Source: Amia ocellicauda (lineage: Eukaryota > Chordata > Actinopteri > Amiiformes > Amiidae). From it: a stretch of 64,000 bases of DNA. This document shows positions 27,922 through 59,960 of the stretch, piece by piece. The stretch covers positions 1,195,001 to 1,259,000 of the forward strand of contig NC_089853.1 of assembly GCF_036373705.1 (NCBI RefSeq). Direction: 5' to 3'. Numbering within the stretch: position 1 is the first letter of the stretch; every line of letters starts with the position of its first letter. The position numbers and the translations under genes were made by a program. Under the pieces are notes generated by a model. It was not told where the DNA came from. It worked only from the letters and a program-made list of their open reading frames with translations, and searched no databases.

Positions 27922-29140
27922 CACTCACCTAAAGGATTATTAGGAACACCATACTAATACTGTGTTTGACCCCCTTTCGCCTTCAGAACTGCCTTAATTC
28001 TACGTGGCATTGATTCAACAAGGTGCTGAAAGCATTCTTTAGAAATGTTGGCCCATATTGATAGGATAGCATCTTGCAGTTGATGGAGATTTGTGGGATG
28101 CACATCCAGGGCACGAAGCTCCCGTTCCACCACATCCCAAAGATGCTCTATTGGGTTGAGATCTGGTGACTGTGGGGGCCAGTTTAGTACAGTGAACTCA
28201 TTGTCATGTTCAAGAAACCAATTTGAAATGATTCGACCTTTGTGACATGGTGCATTATCCTGCTGGAAGTAGCCATCAGAGGATGGGTACATGGTGGTCA
28301 TAAAGGGATGGACATGGTCAGAAACAATGCTCAGGTAGGCCGTGGCATTTAAACGATGCCCAATTGGCACTAAGGGGCCTAAAGTGTGCCAAGAAAACAT
28401 CCCCCACACCATTACACCACCACCACCAGCCTGCACAGTGGTAACAAGGCATGATGGATCCATGTTCTCATTCTGTTTACGCCAAATTCTGACTCTACCA
28501 TCTGAATGTCTCAACAGAAATCGACTCATCAGACCAGGCAACATTTTTCCAGTCTTCAACTGTCCAATTTTGGTGAGCTTGTGCAAATTGTAGCCTCTTT
28601 TTCCTATTTGTAGTGGAGATGAGTGGTACCCGGTGGGGTCTTCTGCTGTTGTAGCCCATCCGCCTCAAGGTTGTACGTGTTGTGGCTTCACAAATGCTTT
28701 GCTGCATACCTCGGTTGTAACGAGTGGTTATTTCAGTCAAAGTTGCTCTTCTATCAGCTTGAATCAGTCGGCCCGTTCTCCTCTGACCTCTAGCATCAAC
28801 AAGGCATTTTCACCCACAGGACTGCCGCATACTGGATGTTTTTCCCTTTTCACACCATTCTTTGTAAACCCTAGAAATGGTTGTGCGTGAAAATCCCAGT
28901 AACTGAGCAGATTGTGAAATACTCAGACCGGCCCGTCTGGCACCAACAACCATGCCACGCTCAAAATTGCTTAAATCACCTTTCTTTCCCATTCAGACAT
29001 TCAGTTTGGAGTTCAGGAGATTGTCTTGACCAGGACCACAGCCCTAAATGCATTGAAGCAACTGCCATGTGATTGGTTGGTTAGATAATTGCATTAATGA
29101 GAAATTGAACAGGTGTTCCTAATAATCCTTTAGGTGAGTG
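27922..29140 (-). mobile_element. Tc1/mariner element, DD36E type, copy 1 (defective)
   Basis: It is bounded by TA on both sides (27920-27921 and 29141-29142). Inverted ends read CACTCACCTAAAGGATTATT inward from each side. Length is 1219 bp. The transposase on the minus strand is broken by a stop in place of an Arg codon (CGA to TGA) after residue 60, near 28810, and by a 2-bp deletion at about 28524 relative to the copy at 58682-59902. By eye the two copies differ at about seven other single bases. The intact copy describes the protein. Confidence 0.95.
27954..28992 (-). pseudogene. Tc1-like DD36E transposase, copy 1, stop plus frameshift
   Basis: The N-terminal 60 residues (28992-28810) match the intact copy, then a TGA stop follows. 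The catalytic two thirds (27954-28586) reads in another frame after a 2-bp deletion just past the first catalytic Asp block (WSDES). The second Asp (FQQDNAP) and the Glu (LNPIEHLWD) codons remain. No functional full-length transposase can be made. Confidence 0.95.
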
Positions 29141-31324: not shown

Positions 31325-34300
31325 TCAGTCAGCTTCCTCATCAGACTCTTCCTCCTCTGCGGTTTCCAGCCAGGTCAGCCACTGGTTCACCTGGGAAGGA
31401 CAGGAAAAGCATACATTACGAATGGCGTAGTCCCGGCCCGACTGCCAAGCCCAGTCAGCAGTACAATAATGCCAGGAAAGAAGTGCACATTGTGCAAACC
31501 ATGCGATTTCCCAAGTCAGCAGGGTGGAGCCACTTCATTCAGAGCAGTCGATCCAATCTTAGTGCAGTTATAAAGCAGCCTTGATTTAAATGCAGTTACC
31601 TGGAATAATGCTTTTCCCTTTCCAGGGAACTCTTGTGTAATGTCTTCTTTCCAAGCAAGGAAGGCTTCTTCTTCAATTATCTCCATGTCATAGAAGTTGA
31701 CAAAATAGCGCAGTAACATGCCTGAAATTGAATAAAAGCCAACACACAAAGTTAGTCCAAATTACATGTTACAAGATCATAAGGTTAAATGCTACAGCTG
31801 CACATTTCACACACAAGAGAACTGCAATTGCTTTGCAGTGAAAGGTAGAGAGCAGACTAAGTTTTGGTTTCTACTACAGTTTAAAAGGAGTCATTTGATA
31901 GCATACAAGAATGTGCAGATGCACACACAGATCTGAGATGTCATAGCACTTGCCTTTTGGAAAACCGTTGTTGTTGCAGTGAACCTGCAGTGCGTACAGG
32001 GCGCTGACCTGCAGATCAACGTGATCGTGCAGGAATTTCTGCATCACTGGCTTGAAGGCAAGCAGCAGCTGTTTCTCCTGGTCTAACTGCTCTTTGGAAG
32101 GAGCAGATAATTGGTCATCTCCTTCAGCTATACTCATCTCATGGGAAATATACTGCAAGAAGCTTAAAAAAAAAAAAAAAAAAAAGTTAAGAGGCTGCCC
32201 CAAAATACAAAAAGCAAACTACTTGGTAGGACAGGCACAACAGGTAGTGCATCAACTCCCCACTCACCTGGTCATCAGGATGTTGACAAAGCCCTTATCA
32301 GTGTGGAGCTTGGGCGAAATGTTATCTTTGATCCACTTGTAGATGGCCTGTGGCGAGGGGTCTGCCTTGATCTGCTTCAACAGCTCCTTCTCCAGCTTCA
32401 GAAGTGGGAACAGAAAACTAAGTCCTTTTCCTTCAAGGATTTCCAACATACGATCTTTATTCTGATCAATCTCTGTGTGGGGGGAGACATTCACGATGCA
32501 CAGGTTAGAAGATGCACACTTCAAGTCACACTTGCCAGATGTAAATTTGAGGAGAATTTTAACTGAATGATGGGCTTCAAAGTATATTCCCCAAAAGGTA
32601 AAGCAGAAGTTAAGGAATAAAGATAACTAAATCAGAGCTATAGTTCTTGCTCTGTACATTTCACATTCTTAATACAGAGCAGTGACCAATAGTTATACAA
32701 GCCACACAGCTGTGCTACAAAGGGAGAGGAAGGAGAAAAACTCTCACCAGGCAGCATCTTCTGCATGTTGACCTTGCTTTGCTGGAAAAGTTCAGTGAGC
32801 CATTCTTTATCCTTCATCTTAGCAGTTTGTTGAAGACAGAGCAGGAAAAGGGGAAAATGCGTGCCATTTTCCAGTGGCTGTGCCAGCTCCGCTACATTCA
32901 CAAGCTCGGCAATAATAGCACGGGCTGCAAACTGGGCCAAGTAGGACTTCACAAGAGGGATGTCCACCTCTATTTTGGGACACTGGTCCAACACATTAAG
33001 GAACGCCTAGAAGGAGGGGAAAAAAAAAGTTACACCCTCCCAAAACTGCTTTCCATAAACTGAGTAGAAATTCTATGCCAACAAAATTCACAAAGGCTCA
33101 CGTAGCAGCAGCATGCATGGGACTAATTAGAACAGGAAACAGCCTCAATAAAAACCAACTTTGTTAAAGTGGCAATGATTATTTCTCCTGGAACAGATCC
33201 ATTGATCTAGGTACATGGGAATGTAGAGACCAGCTTACAACATTTACCTGCATGAAGTTCTCCCCAGTGATCAGCCCCTCCGATCTAAGCGAATGGATCA
33301 GAGTGCTGGCGTGCTCTTTGTCATCATCCGAACGGTCCAGTGAACAAATCACGATCTTGCTCAGCATCTCTGGCAGAAAGTGTTTCGGGGCTTTCATCTC
33401 CCTAACACCACTGACGGCATCATTCATATTCTTACTGTTCAGGTAGTCTGTTACAATCACCTCCTTCAGAGAGGGGAAAAGGAGAAATGGGTCAAGTGCA
33501 TTTTCATCCTGCGATGAACATGAAGAGCAATTACACATCACACAGCAGCCATACGTACAGTCATTTTGAGCAGCTCTTCTCTAGCCGGAGGAGGTCTCTT
33601 GCTATTCTTTGCAGGCTTTTCCTGGATTGGAGGTGGGTTGGTTTTGAGGCCAAGTTGAGGTGGCTATGTAAAAAAAAAAAAAATCAAATTGTGACCTACA
33701 AGCACTGTGGAAAGGAGTACATTAAAAATGAAAGGCTTTTAAGAACTCCACACATGCAGGTTTGATAAAGCCTACCTGTCCCAGGGGTGGCGTCTGTGTG
33801 CGAGGTGGCTGTGCACTAGGAGGAATCATAGTTGGTATCTGTGGCTGCAGCTTTGGCACTTGATTTTTATTCAGAAGGAATGACTGAGCCGGTCTCAGGC
33901 TGATCTGAAGACAAAGTGACACATCAGTACATTTACAAAAAAAAAAAATGAATTCAAAGTTGCACCATTATGCCCTCATATCTCATAATCGCAGTCAGCG
34001 GACCCTAGTCACCAGTTGACAGTGGTGAGTCAGCAGGGGCAAGAGAAGAGTAATGGGGGAGCAGGGAGGGGGGAGAAAAGAGGTGAAAGTAGAGAAGACT
34101 GGTACCAGGTTTTTTCCCCTCAGAATAACGCGTCTTTTTATAATCACTGGGCATTACTACACTTTCAGGGTTAGCATTTATTTTGTATAGGACTCCTTTA
34201 CCTCATCTGCATTGAGCTGTCCCTTCTTAATGAACCGTGGTGGCATGTCCTTGGACTGAGCTTGCTGCTGGGATGAATGTCCCTGGTTCTGGTTATGAAA

Positions 34301-41889: not shown

Positions 41890-41891
41890 TA

Positions 41892-42647
41892 CACCGATCA
41901 GCCATAACATTATGACCACCTGCCTAATATTGTGTAGGTCCCCCTTTTGCCACCAAAACAGCCCTGACCCGTCGAGGCATGGACTCCACTAGACCTCTGA
42001 AGGTGTGCTGTGGTATCTGGCACTAAGACATTAGCAGCAGTTCCTTTAAGTCCTGTAAGTTGCGAGGTGGGGCCTCCATGGATCGGACTTGTTTGTCCAG
42101 CACATCCCACAGATGCTCGATTGGATTGAGATCTGGGGAATTTGGAGGCCAAGTCAACACCTTGAACTCACGATTCATCAGACCAGGCCACCTTCTTCCA
42201 TTGCTCCGTGGTCCAGTTCTGATGCTCACATGCCTTCGGAGGTGGACAGGGGTCAGCATGGGCACCCTGACTGGTCTGGGGCTACGCAGCCCCATACGCA
42301 AAAAACTGCGACGCACTGTGTGTTCCGACACCTTTCCATCAGAACCAGCATTCACTTTTTCAGCAATTTGATAGGTACTGACCACTGCAGACCGGGAACA
42401 CCCCACAAGAGCTGCAGTTTTGGAGATGCTCTGACCCAGCCGTCTAGCCATCACGATTTGGCCCTTGTCAAAGTCGCTCAGATCCTTACACTTGCCCATT
42501 TTTCCTGCTTCTAACACATCAAATTTGAGGACAAAATGTTCACTTGCTGCCTAATATATCCCAGCCACTGATAGGCGCCATGATAACGAGATTATCAGTG
42601 TTATTCACTTCACCTGTCAGTGCTCATAATGTTATGGCTGATTGGTG
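41892..42647 (-). mobile_element. Tc1-like element, internally deleted
   Basis: TA flanks (41890-41891, 42648-42649) enclose inverted ends CACCGATCAGCCATAACATT on the left and CACCAATCAGCCATAACATT read from the right. At 756 bp it is well below the roughly 1.2-1.3 kb expected for a full Tc1 element. The minus-strand ORF joins the start of the catalytic domain straight to its end, so a middle piece is missing. Confidence 0.9.
42023..42517 (-). pseudogene. Tc1-like transposase with the catalytic core deleted
   Basis: The N-terminal helix-turn-helix region is intact ([33 protein letters not shown]). The next part is out of frame with the usual order, then [20 protein letters not shown] runs directly into [14 protein letters not shown]. 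In the frame-restored DNA the first Asp block (WSDES) abuts REFKVL at about 42170, so the region with the second catalytic Asp (the QQDNAP block) is gone. It cannot catalyse transposition. Confidence 0.85.
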
Positions 42648-42649
42648 TA

Positions 42650-44901: not shown

Positions 44902-46480
44902 CAGTGAGGGAAAAAAGTATTTGATCCCCTGCTGATTTTGTACATTTGCCCACTGACAAAGAAATGATCAGTCTATAATTTTAATGGTAGGTGTATTTTA
45001 ACAGTGAGAGACAGAATAACAACAAAAAAAATCCAGAAAAACACATTTCAAAAAAAGTTATAAATTGATTTGCATGTTAATGAGGGAAATAAGTATTTGA
45101 CCCCTTCGACTTAGTACTTGGTGGCAAAACCCTTGTTGGCAATCACAGAGGTCAGGCGTTTTTTGTAGTTGGCCACCAGGTTTGCACGCATCTCAGAAGG
45201 GATTTTGTCCCACTCCTCTCTGCAGATCCTCTCTTAAGGTTTCGAGGCTGACGTTTGGCAACTCGAACCTTCAACTTCCACCACAGATTTGCTATGGGAT
45301 TAAGGTCTGGAGACTGGCTAGGCCACTCCAGGACTTTAATGTGCTTCTTCTTGAGCCACTCCTTTGTTGCCTTGGCTGTGTGTTTTGGGTCATTGTCATG
45401 CTGGAATACCCATCCACGACCCATTTTCAATGCCCTGGCTGAGGGAAGGAGGTTCTCACTTAAGATTTGACGGTACATGGCCCCGTCCATTGTCCCTTTG
45501 ATGCGGTGCAGTTGTCCTGTCCCCTTAGCAGAAAAACACCCCCAAAGCATAATGTTTCCACCTCCATGTTTGACGGTGGGGATGGTGTTCTTGGGGTCAT
45601 TCCTCCTCCTCCAAACACGGCGAGTTGAGTTGATGCCAAAGAGCTCGATTTTGGTCTCATCAGACCACAACACTTTCACCCAGTTCTCCTCTGAATCATT
45701 CAGATGTTCATTGGCAAACTTCAGACAGGCCTGTACGTGTGCTTTCTTGAGCTGGGGGACCTTGCGGGCGCTGCAGGATTTCAGTCCTTCACGGCGTAGT
45801 GTTACCAATTGTTTTCTTGGTGACTATGGTCCCAGCTGCCTTGAGATCATTAACAAGATCCTCCCATGTAGTTTGGGCTGATTCCTCACCGTTCTCATGA
45901 TCATTGAAACTCCACAAGGTGAGATCTTGCATGGAGCCCCAGACCGAGGGAGACTGACAGTTATTTTGTGTTTCTTCCATTTGCGAATAATTGCACCAAC
46001 TGTTATCACCTTCTCACCAAGCTGCTTGGCGATGGTCTTGTAGCCCATTCCAGCCTTGTGTAGGTCTACAATCTTGTCCCTGACATCCTTGGACAGCTCT
46101 TTGGTCTTGGCCATGGTGGAGAGTTTGGAATCTGATTGATTGATTGCTTCTGTGGACAGGTGTCTTTTATACAGGTAACAATCTGAGACTAGGCGCACTC
46201 CCTTTAAGAGAGTGCTCCTAATCTCAGCTCGTTACCTGTATAAAAGACACCTGGGAGCCAGAAATCTTGCTGATTGATAGGGGATCAAATACTTATTTCC
46301 CTCATTAACATGCAAATCAATTTATAACTTCTTTGAAATGCGTTTTTCTGGATTTTGTTGTTGTTATTCTGTCTCTCACTGTTAAAATACAGCTACCATT
46401 AAAATTATAGACTGATCATTTCTTTGTCAGTGGGCAAACGTACAAAATCAGCAGGGGATCGAATACTTTTTCCCTCACTG
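44902..46480 (-). mobile_element. Tc1-like element, long-TIR family, copy 1
   Basis: TA flanks at 44900-44901 and 46481-46482. The terminal inverted repeats are about 200 bp each (44902-45104 and 46280-46480), beginning CAGTGAGGGAAAAA and ending near TGAGGGAAATAAGTATTTGA. This is the IR/DR layout known from fish Tc1 elements. An inner palindrome (CAGGTGTCTTTTATACAGG and its complement) lies at 46161-46254 beside the right repeat. The transposase inside is decayed. Confidence 0.95.
45152..46114 (-). pseudogene. Tc1-like transposase, frameshifted, catalytic Glu replaced by Ala
   Basis: Start [20 protein letters not shown] at 46114. Helix-turn-helix pieces follow ([15 protein letters not shown]). 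The frame then shifts near 45860 and near 45795, and again by a 7-bp deletion at about 45230 that scrambles the C-terminus. The catalytic part 45152-45808 shows the first Asp ([13 protein letters not shown]), the second Asp ([13 protein letters not shown]) and, 34 residues later, Ala instead of Glu ([12 protein letters not shown]). Intact Tc1 transposases have NPIENLW here. Confidence 0.9.
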
Positions 46481-54686: not shown

Positions 54687-54896
54687 TACAGTTGGGGGAA
54701 AAAAGTATTTGATCCCCTGCTGATTTTGTACGTTTGCCCACTAACAAAGGAATGATCAGTCTATAATTTTAATGGTAGGTGTATTTTAACAGTGAGAGAC
54801 AGAATAACAACAACAAAGTCCAGAAAAACGCATTTCAAAAAAGTTACAAATTGATTTGCATGTTAATGAGGGAAATAAGTATTTGACCCCTTCGAC

Positions 54897-56059
54897 TTAG
54901 TACTTGGTGGCAAAACCCTTGTTGGCAATCACAGAGGTCAGGCGTTTTTTGTAGTTGGCCACCAGGTTTGCACACATCTCAGGAGGGATTTTGTCCCACT
55001 CCTCTTTGCAGATCCTCTCCAAGTCATTAAGGTTTCGAGGCTGACGTTTGGCAACTAGAACCTTCAGCTCCCTCCACAGATTTGCTATGGGATTAAGGTC
55101 TGGAGACTGACTAGGCCACTCCAGGACCTTAATGTGCTTCTTCTTGAGCCACTCCTTTGTTGCCTTGGCTGTGTGTTTTGGGTCATTGTCATGCTGGAAT
55201 ACCCATCCACGACCCATTTTCAATGCCCTGGCTGAGGGAAGGAGGTTCTCACCCAAGATTTGACGATACATGGCCCCGTCCATCGTCCCTTTGATGCGGT
55301 GCAGTTGTCCTGTCCCCTTAGCAGAAAAACACCCCCAAAGCATAATGTTTCCACCTCCATGTTTGACGGTGGGGATGGTGTTCTTGGGGTCATTCCTCCT
55401 CCTCCAAACACGGCGAGTTGAGTTGATGCAGCACTGTGTAGTAGTGGTTAGGGCTCTGGACTCGTGACTGGAAGTGGGTTCAAATCCCGGGTGGGCAGTG
55501 CTGTTGTGTCCTTGAGCATGGTACTTCACTTAGATTGCGCCAGTAAAATGCCCAGCTGTATAAATGGGTACAAATGTAAGTCGCCCTGGATAAGAGCATC
55601 TGCTAAATGACAAATAATGTAATGTAATGATGCCAAAGAGCTTGATTTTGCTCTCATCTGACCACAACACTTTCACCCAGTTCTCCTCTGAATCATTCAG
55701 ATGTTCATTGGCAAACTTCAGACGGGCCTGTACATGCGCTTTCTTGAGCAGGGGACCTTGCGGGTGCTGCAGGATTTCAGTCCTTCACGGCGTAGTGTGT
55801 TACCAATTGTTTTCTTGGTGACTATGGTCCCAGCTGCCTTGAGATCATTAACAAGATCCTCCCGTGTAGTTCTGGGCTGATTCCTCACCGTTCTCATGAT
55901 CATTGAAACTCCATGAGGTGAGATCTTGCATGGAGCCCCAGATCGAGGGAGACTGACAGTTATTTTGTGTTGTGTTGGGTCTTGTAGCCCATTCCAGCCT
56001 TGTGTAGGTCTACAATCTTGTCCCTGACATCCTTGGACAGCTCTTTGGTCTTGGCCATG
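54897..56059 (-). pseudogene. Tc1-like transposase, SINE-interrupted, catalytic Glu replaced by Ala
   Basis: The C-terminal two thirds (54897 to about 55423) reads cleanly to the end ([20 protein letters not shown], then [10 protein letters not shown]). The N-terminal part (55634-56059) is separated by the SINE and carries a deletion of about 60 bp near 55970 plus small indels near 55760-55800. As in copy 1, the third catalytic residue is Ala (LNPIANLW) and both Asp residues remain. The C-terminus is intact here, unlike copy 1. Confidence 0.9.
55430..55627 (+). mobile_element. tRNA-derived SINE with L2-type tail, inserted in a Tc1 element
   Basis: The head is tRNA-like: an A-box-like TAGTGGTTAGGGCTC and a B box GGTTCAAATCCC about 35 bases later. 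The body ends with AAGTCGCCCTGGATAAGAGC and ATCTGCTAAATGAC, the tail shared with fish L2 LINEs, followed by an AATGT repeat. TGATGC flanks both sides (55424-55429 and 55628-55633), and the uninterrupted target is visible in the sister element at about 45633-45638. Confidence 0.93.
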
Positions 56060-56418
56060 GTGGAGAGTTTGGAATCTGATTGATTGATTATTTCTGGCTC
56101 CCAGGTGTCTTTTATACAGGTAACGAGCTGAGCTCTCTTAAAGGGAGTGCTCCTAATCTCAGCTCGTTACCTGTATAAAGGACACCTGGGAGCCAGAAAT
56201 CTTGCTGATTGATAGGGGATCAAATACTTATTTCCCTCATTAACATGCAAATCAATTTATAACTTCTTTGAAATGCGTTTTTCTGGATTTTGTTGTTGTT
56301 ATTCTGTCTCTCACTGTTAAAATACACCTACCATTAAAATTATAGACTGATCATTTCTTTGTCAGTGGGCAAACGTACAAAATCAGCAGGGGATCAAATA
56401 TTTTTTTCCCTCACTGTA

Positions 56419-58294: not shown

Positions 58295-58341
<47 letters not shown>
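58295..58341. repeat. (AT)n microsatellite
   Basis: About 23 AT units. Confidence 0.95.
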
Positions 58342-58345
<4 letters not shown>

Positions 58346-58359
58346 CCATCACCATCAGC

Positions 58360-58660
58360 CTATATCAATTTACTGCTTAATGAAGGCTCCCCAAGATGTT
58401 TCCACTTGCTTTGATCTACAGCTTCTCTAATCCTTGTCACATCTGCACATTTTATTATTTCAGCTTCCCATCTTTTATGTGGTCCTCTTCTAGGTGTTTT
58501 TTCATCTATTGGTATCCATTCATTAGCTTCCTTTGTCTGTCTTTGATCTGTTAATCTTGCAATGTGTCTGGTATATTGCCATTTTAGCATTTTCACTCTT
58601 TCAGTGATGTCACATATCTTTGTTTTTGCTCAATTTAACTTGATTCCCTCTTCTTCCCAG
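58360..58660 (-). mobile_element. RTE-like non-LTR retrotransposon, C-terminal fragment
   Basis: The minus-strand frame reads KMLKWQYTRHIARLTDQRQT, then EWIPIDEKTPRRGPHKRWE, then SKWKHLGEP. This is the typical end of RTE-type LINE reverse-transcriptase proteins (a basic block of the W-x-GH-x-AR, P-x-GKRPRGRP-x-RW kind). One stop occurs upstream at about 58630, so it is a dead fragment. The clade assignment rests on this short block. Confidence 0.65.
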
Positions 58661-58681
58661 TCCAGATCATGAGTATATATA

Positions 58682-59899
58682 CACTCACCTAAAGGATTAT
58701 TAGGAACACCATACTAATACTGTGTTTGACCCCCTTTCACCTTCAGAACTGCCTTAATTCTACGTGGCATTGATTCAACAAGGTGCTGAAAGCATTCTTT
58801 AGAAATGTTGGCCCATATTGATAGGATAGCATCTTGCAGTTGATGGAGATTTGTGGGATGCACATCCAGGGCACGAAGCTCCCGTTCCACCACATCCCAA
58901 AGATGCTCTATTGGGTTGAGATCTGGTGACTGTGGGGGCCAGTTTAGTACAGTGAACTCATTGTCATGTTCAAGAAACCAATTTGAAATGATTCGACCTT
59001 TGTGACATGGTGCATTATCCTGCTGGAAGTAGCCATCAGAGGATGGGTACATGGTGGTCATAAAGGGATGGACATGGTCAGAAACAATGCTCAGGTAGGC
59101 CGTGGCATTTAAACGATGCCCAATTGGCACTAAGGGGCCTAAAGTGTGCCAAGAAAACATCCCCCACACCATTACACCACCACCACCAGCCTGCACAGTG
59201 GTAACAAGGCATGATGGATCCATGTTCTCATTCTGTTTACGCCAAATTCTGACTCTACCATCTGAATGTCTCAACAGAAATCGAGACTCATCAGACCAGG
59301 CAACATTTTTCCAGTCTTCAACTGTCCAATTTTGGTGAGCTTGTGCAAATTGTAGCCTCTTTTTCCTATTTGTAGTGGAGATGAGTGGTACCCGGTGGGG
59401 TCTTCTGCTGTTGTAGCCCATCCGCCTCAAGGTTGTACGTGTTGTGGCTTCACAAATGCTTTGCTGCATACCTCGGTTGTAACGAGTGCTTATTTCAGTC
59501 AAAGTTGCTCTTCTATCAGCTTGAATCAGTCGGCCCATTCTCCTCTGACCTCTAGCATCAACAAGGAATTTTCGCCCACAGGACTGCCGCATACTGGATG
59601 TTTTTCCCTTTTCACACCATTCTTTGTAAACCCTAGAAATGGTTGTGCGTGAAAATCCCAGTAACTGAGCAGATTGTGAAATACTCAGACCGGCCCGTCT
59701 GGCACCAACAACCATGCCACGCTCAAAATTGCTTAAATCACCTTTCTTTCCCATTCAGACATTCAGTTTGGAGTTCAGGAGATTGTCTTGACCAGGACCA
59801 CACCCCTAAATGCATTGAAGCAACTGCCATGTGATTGGTTGATTAGATAATTGCATTAATGAGAAATTGAACAGGTGTTCCTAATAATCCTTTAGGTGA

Positions 59900-59902
<3 letters not shown>
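58682..59902 (-). mobile_element. Tc1/mariner element, DD36E (Incomer-like), copy 2, intact
   Basis: TA flanks (58680-58681, 59903-59904) lie in TA-rich DNA: TATATAT precedes it and a long (TA)n follows, so it landed in or beside a TA microsatellite. Inverted ends CACTCACCTAAAGGATTATT face inward on both sides. Length is 1221 bp. It encodes an unbroken transposase. It differs from copy 1 by only about seven bases and one 2-bp indel by eye. Confidence 0.97.
58714..59754 (-). CDS. Tc1/mariner transposase, DD36E type, uninterrupted
   Basis: 346 residues with no stop or frameshift, the usual length for this superfamily. Residues about 7-60 form the first helix-turn-helix (FERGMVVGARRAGLSISQSA, GFSRTTISRVYKEW), and about 75-120 the second, followed by a basic linker (NSRRPHRVP). 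The catalytic triad is D155 in AWSDESRF, D246 in YFQQDNAPCH and E283 in LNPIEHLWD. Thus 90 residues separate the two Asp and 36 separate the second Asp from Glu. Most Tc1 proteins have 34; DD36E is the spacing reported for the Incomer group. Such enzymes bind the inverted ends, cut and reinsert the element at TA. The start at 59754 follows the right end by about 150 bases. Whether it is transcribed or active is unknown. Confidence 0.95.
   Translation of the reverse strand: MGKKGDLSNFERGMVVGARRAGLSISQSAQLLGFSRTTISRVYKEWCEKGKTSSMRQSCGRKFLVDARGQRRMGRLIQADRRATLTEISTRYNRGMQQSICEATTRTTLRRMGYNSRRPHRVPLISTTNRKKRLQFAQAHQNWTVEDWKNVAWSDESRFLLRHSDGRVRIWRKQNENMDPSCLVTTVQAGGGGVMVWGMFSWHTLGPLVPIGHRLNATAYLSIVSDHVHPFMTTMYPSSDGYFQQDNAPCHKGRIISNWFLEHDNEFTVLNWPPQSPDLNPIEHLWDVVERELRALDVHPTNLHQLQDAILSIWANISKECFQHLVESMPRRIKAVLKVKGGQTQY

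Positions 59903-59904
<2 letters not shown>

Positions 59905-59960
<56 letters not shown>
59905..59960. repeat. (TA)n microsatellite flanking the transposon
   Basis: About 28 TA units directly after the right target TA of the DD36E element. Confidence 0.95.

Follow-up and report, generated by a model that had tools for sequence, protein, structure and literature searches.

A DD36E/Incomer-type Tc1/mariner element in Amia ocellicauda and the young, high-copy family to which it very probably belongs

The closest described system to the element analysed here is the DD36E/Incomer (IC) family of Tc1/mariner transposons. The text of its published description (Sang et al. 2019; PMC6875036) gives elements of about 1.2 kb with a single open reading frame (ORF) of about 346 amino acids, a DD36E motif, terminal inverted repeats (TIRs) of 22-32 bp and TA target duplications, and it names 132 ray-finned fish species among other animal hosts. 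The same text reports intact and apparently recent copies, measuring 1169-1229 bp, from 33 ray-finned fish species, and considers that the family may be active to this day; Incomer is closest to DD34E/Tc1, from which it was probably derived (PMC6875036).

We analysed a window of 64,000 nucleotides (C4:1195001-1259000 of an assembly of 988,188,214 bp in 385 contigs) holding an intact element of this kind, here called copy A. Copy A is a real and exactly placed Tc1/mariner-type element, and it is very probably one member of the DD36E/Incomer family, which would have spread here in one recent burst to about 17,000 copies, or about 2% of the genome. The features of the window are collected in Table 1.

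Table 1. Positions of the transposon copies, their parts and a small RNA gene within the window
Feature	Position	Strand	Remarks
Intact DD36E Tc1/mariner element (copy A)	58682..59902	-	1221 bp; transposase on minus strand
TIR, gene's 3' side	58682..58710	+	29 bp
TIR, gene's 5' side	59874..59902	-	29 bp; identical to other end
Transposase ORF	58714..59754	-	346 aa; HTH_23 (11-47), HTH_Tnp_Tc3_2 (71-142), DDE_3 (151-295); D155, D246, E283
(TA)28.5 microsatellite at insertion point	59903..59959	.	57 bp; other side: 4 TA units, 58674-58681
Second copy (copy B)	27922..29140	-	1219 bp; not intact (stop at codon 61, frame lost at codon 157 through a 2-bp deletion); TA at either end
Further Tc1-type element, a relic	41890-42649		30-bp ends, 93% complementary; transposase internally deleted; longest ORF 164 aa
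Older Tc1-type element	44905-46474		inverted arms 122 bp, 96% complementary; longest ORF 218 aa, gene broken
Older Tc1-type element	54693-56413		inverted arms 198 bp, 96% complementary; longest ORF 210 aa, gene broken
SNORD97 snoRNA	33970-34154		65.5 bits, gathering 45

Copy A and its surroundings in the window

An initial annotation, made from the letters of the window, had described an element with matching inverted ends and an unbroken 346-residue transposase carrying D155, D246 and E283. Its coordinates and ends proved to be exact, and the frame was verified on the minus strand, with 36 residues between D246 and E283. The arms reach 37 bp when the flanking TA repeat is counted in, and the inner 23 bp of the TIR were matched four times in the window at up to three mismatches, against no match in 100 shuffles. 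The three Pfam domains of the transposase each score over the curated cut-off. Incomer is also characterised by two HTH motifs, a GRPR-like motif and an NLS; in the stretch between HTH_23 and HTH_Tnp_Tc3_2, searched for a GRPR-like motif, only GRK at residues 60-62 was found. Residues 119-346 align to the catalytic domain of Sleeping Beauty SB100X (5cr4; E 2e-44) with agreement in the triad columns, and a two-residue insertion between the second D and the E, relative to SB100X, turns 34 into 36. The triad call rests on this alignment; the alignment with the partial ORFs of the window covers the first D poorly. A chance ORF was also considered and dropped: when the element was shuffled 500 times by mononucleotides, no stretch without a stop exceeded 194 aa, versus 346 aa in copy A.

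Copy B had been reported as a sister copy about seven bases and one 2-bp indel away, and we found exactly seven substitutions and a 2-bp deletion between it and copy A. Five of the seven substitutions are inside the ORF and none of these is silent; one of them introduces the codon-61 stop, and a frameshift at codon 157 results from the deletion, so copy B is not a working copy. It has TA at both ends, and its right flank is not a TA repeat. Over 1 kb on each side, the flanks of copies A and B have only chance matches of 12-17 bp in common, and the two are therefore separate insertions.

Three other Tc1-type elements are present in the window. Over the last 83 residues, the relic at 41890-42649 has 54% identity with the DD36E protein, which makes it closer than the DD34E-type copies. 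The elements at 44905-46474 and 54693-56413 belong to the same superfamily as copy A, without its two extra residues (the DD34E-type length), and both have Ala at the place of the E (NPIANLW). To the left of copy A, positions 58342-58632 belong to a dispersed repeat, with 81-85% identity to the 39 further genomic places that were scored, and the minus-strand frame at 58360-58629 resembles the last part of a LINE reverse transcriptase ORF. No second near-identical match to 58340-58660 was present among the 40 scored of 3803 candidates, so that a second allele of the site, whether empty or filled, did not appear among them.

As for host genes, weak TPR matches, under the curated cut-offs, lie on the plus strand at 9.7-10.0 and 12.3-12.5 kb, in a region which we take to be CTR9. 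A minus-strand MA3 match at its cut-off (32.6-33.0 kb) and a MIF4G match under its cut-off (36.5-36.8 kb) mark a region that is presumably EIF4G2, to which we also assign, as an assumption, the exons around SNORD97. Together these features point to a vertebrate host. Copies A and B are both outside the few exons recognised in the window.

Copy number and age of the family

The initial annotation had proposed a search of the whole genome, and this search returned about 17,000 near-identical copies. The 29-bp TIR was found 34,206 times (17,176 + 17,030) with up to three mismatches, 33,625 times (16,912 + 16,713) with up to one and 29,381 times (14,752 + 14,629) without any, the backward-pattern control giving 0 at each level. 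Half of the 34,206 ends corresponds to about 17,100 copies and, if all were full length, to about 2.1% of the genome; as ends with up to three mismatches are taken, copies diverged by much over 10% would escape this count. At this density 1.1 copies are expected per 64 kb, so two copies in the window are ordinary for this genome. A central 29-mer was found 16,155 times (7,989 + 8,166) with up to three mismatches and a control of 0, as would be expected if the middle of the gene is retained in most copies and only a minority are deleted internally.

Of the 34,206 ends, 85.9% match exactly, and no more than one mismatch is present in 98.3%. From the exact fraction, a divergence of 0.52% per site is obtained (-ln(29381/34206)/29). 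Ends with one mismatch make up 12.4% and those with two or three 1.7%, compared with 13.1% and 1.0% for a Poisson distribution of the same mean. This slight excess of ends with two or three mismatches is hardly an older tail, because a wave at 5-10% divergence would give many such ends.

A positional sample was made up of the copies at the 40 forward exact TIRs that head the list for contig C1 (1.14-2.38 Mb); it requires one exact TIR and covers one stretch. All 40 copies are 0.41-1.47% from copy A, with a median of 0.90% for the 32 of full length (1150-1260 bp), and the right TIR is present in 37. A full frame, of 346 aa in eleven copies and 347 aa in one, was found in 12 of the 40; the three copies without a right TIR in range stand outside the ORF and target counts. 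The 32 full-length copies together with A and B form a set of 34 sequences, with a mean pairwise difference of 1.15% (0.17-2.06%), and the 32 have on average 4.75 private substitutions each, or 0.39%. If 3e-9 to 1e-8 substitutions per site and year are assumed, values of 0.39-0.52% translate into about 0.4-1.7 million years, and with 1e-9 into 4-5 million, so that the age depends on the rate chosen.

A second set was made of the best 40 of 1593 candidates, all of full length and copy A included; the 39 others plus A and B give 41 copies, a set biased to copies like A since only the best 40 were scored. Its pairwise statistics exclude copy B (1219 bp). In this selection of the best 40 of 1593 plus B, the frame is intact in 35 of 41, and three copies are mutually identical; going by the counts, they are L009, L010 and L011, on contigs C26, C20 and C5.

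The suggestion that the element is young and recently inserted is thus borne out by the 85.9% of exact ends and by the 0.41-1.47% distance of the sampled copies from copy A, and the opposite outcome, a genome holding mostly old and divergent copies, was not what we saw, given the 98.3% of ends with at most one mismatch. The near-identity of the genome copies also supports the suggestion that the family lately was active.

Such a copy number could in principle have been inflated by segmental or assembly duplication instead of transposition. Two copies only 147 bp apart (L110 and L111) have variants and a 4-bp deletion in common, so some local duplication or hopping does occur. Duplication as the source of the copy number is very improbable in view of the flanks, which are unrelated not only for copies A and B but also for three copies with a common stop; the other copies read, a subset being compared, adjoin many different sequences, and the stretch to the left of copy A is without a second near-identical match among the 40 places scored, the next best being 85%. 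We therefore attribute the copy number to a burst of transposition.

Two neighbouring pairs in the sample are unusual in arrangement. L110 and L111 (C1:2237668-2240248) are in opposite orientation and may represent a local hop of a broken copy, a local duplication or conversion. In L095 and L096 (C1:1876841-1878645), two forward family TIRs are 587 bp apart with one exact right end listed nearby, and they look as if one copy had been cut by, or had inserted into, another.

Decay, movement in trans and target sites

The private coding changes of the 34 sequences (n=140) comprise 97 missense, 37 silent and 6 stops, where the neutral expectation is 68.6%, 26.9% and 4.5% (chi-square p 0.98). Because these changes match neutrality, the copies decay freely, with no visible selection after insertion. 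One could propose that the frame of copy A, unbroken over 346 codons, has been held by selection as a transposase gene adopted by the host. The neutral mutation spectrum of the copies speaks against such domestication, as do the thousands of equally young copies, the full frame in 12 of 40 sampled copies and the ends of copy A, which are as perfect as in a mobile copy; we give this explanation a negligible probability and continue to regard copy A as one member of a mobile family.

Variants present in at least two of the 34 sequences (n=36) are also close to neutral and comprise 25 missense and 9 silent changes, a single stop and one non-coding variant. This suggests that a copy needs no working transposase of its own in order to be copied on, i.e. 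action in trans, and on this reading of the sequences broken copies are probably still moved by transposase from intact copies. Some of the shared variants may be repeat mutations: in 300 simulated runs, chance recurrence accounted for a mean of 9.7 and a maximum of 17 of the 36, and 10 variants occur in three or more sequences versus 0.4 by chance (maximum 4). The shared stop is at a CpG, its three carriers having unrelated flanks, and the neighbours L110 and L111 have several of the shared variants.

Codons 339 (Val/Ala) and 89 (Ser/Thr) divide the nearest relatives of copy A into groups. The base giving Ala339 is in the majority in the 34 sequences and the base giving Val is in four, copy A among them; Ala is likewise found in the older 42-kb relic, at the position aligned to codon 339. 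By this comparison copy A has at least one derived missense change (V339), and so its open frame does not prove a working protein.

TA target sites had been part of the initial annotation, and TA is found on both sides in 37 of the 41 best-match copies, copy B included, and in 33 of 37 sampled copies. The right side of copy A adjoins 57 bp of (TA)n, so that its own TA duplication is not delimitable. Targets in the positional sample are enriched in TA runs: 11 of 37 have at least five TA units and 18 of 37 at least four, compared with 3.3% and 3.8% of the TA sites in the window (n=4,339; binomial p 2e-8 and 3e-16) and with 2.6% and 3.6% of those in the best-match flanks (n=1,294). At least five units were also found at 23 of 41 targets in the best-match set, which is biased to copies like A. 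Runs are commoner in these best matches (23/41; L009-L047, A and B) than in the positional sample (11/37; L078-L117; Fisher p 0.024). Sleeping Beauty is known to prefer TA-rich palindromic sites. A TA run may have grown after insertion.

TA is missing directly at one or both ends in 4 of the 41 best-match copies and in 4 of the 37 sampled ones. These copies (L010, L011, L042, L043, L080, L096, L104 and L105) are only about 0.5% from the source, and several sit in TA/CA/TG repeats, where slippage or non-TA targets are possible.

Around the observed structure, copy number, youth, neutral decay and enrichment in TA runs, the following mechanism is proposed from the anatomy of the element and the known Tc1/mariner pathway. 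The family may have arrived by horizontal transfer. The 346-aa transposase would bind the 29-bp ends through its two helix-turn-helix domains, and the D155/D246/E283 site would cut the element out, cut-and-paste movement being expected from the family. The excised element would then be rejoined at a TA, often in runs of TA, where the inserted copy, free of selection, would decay; broken copies would probably still be moved in trans by the transposase of intact ones. A much more specific scenario goes further and is offered tentatively, since we judge it somewhat doubtful as a whole: a single arrival of Incomer, leading to about 17,000 copies, more than the counts found in the published text, with several thousand open frames (extrapolated from 12 of 40), moved mostly in trans, with TA microsatellites as favoured targets and with transposition continuing in present-day animals. 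Insertions so young should often be polymorphic, which makes current activity directly testable.

Comparison with Incomer and other Tc1/mariner elements

No relatives of the transposase were found in the viral contigs and phage collections. In the genome contigs collection eight stretches matched the peptide pattern, and by tblastn none of them encodes a relative of the transposase; the plasmid collection held only two IS630 transposases, with 22-30% identity to that of copy A. In the literature searched, TIR or peptide stretches of the element were not found printed. Among the DD36E papers listed, the titles and abstract openings, with passages of PMC7731502, name no transposition assay for Incomer, although one may still be in print.

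The label Incomer-like given by the initial annotation agrees with the values in the text of the family description (PMC6875036). Copy A falls inside the published 1169-1229 bp range with its 1221 bp, its ORF has the 346 aa described, its 29-bp identical ends are within the 22-32 bp given for TIRs, the 36 residues between D246 and E283 were confirmed in the columns of the SB100X alignment, and TA is on both sides in 37/41 (39 best matches, A and B) and 33/37 sampled copies. In overall length, in the size of its ORF, in D-E spacing, in the length of its TIRs and in its TA targets, copy A fits DD36E/Incomer, where it can probably be placed.

In the DD34E/Tc1 group the second D and the E are separated by 34 residues, compared with 36 in copy A. 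Sleeping Beauty, of that group, has the catalytic domain family in common with copy A and a D-E spacing two residues shorter. It is conceivable that copy A is a DD34E/Tc1 element in which two residues were gained independently, making it DD36E by spacing and not by descent; its nearest solved relative is indeed Sleeping Beauty SB100X (E 2e-44), and Incomer itself is closest to, and probably from, DD34E/Tc1 (PMC6875036). An independent gain is nevertheless unlikely: copy A also agrees with the published Incomer values in total length, in the size of its ORF, in the length of its TIRs and in its TA targets, and the DD34E-type elements found in this window have the shorter spacing and an identity of only 30-35%. 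Membership of copy A in DD36E/Incomer is thus the preferred assignment.

Both the kind of element and the idea that it was recently active in such hosts are already in print, in the text of PMC6875036, and since the family is already known the element by itself is ordinary. The weight of these results lies in scale and youth, with about 2% of the genome made up of copies that diverge by about half a percent. A burst of this kind is a clean natural experiment on the expansion and death of DNA transposons, and a native active element, if active, could serve as a gene-transfer tool. The family in this genome differs from the Incomer of the published text in copy number: about 17,000 copies here, taken as half of the TIR count, where Esox lucius has 5,418 and Rhinella marina more than 5,000, figures that rest on a different criterion (BLAST hits exceeding 1000 bp and 90% identity; PMC6875036).
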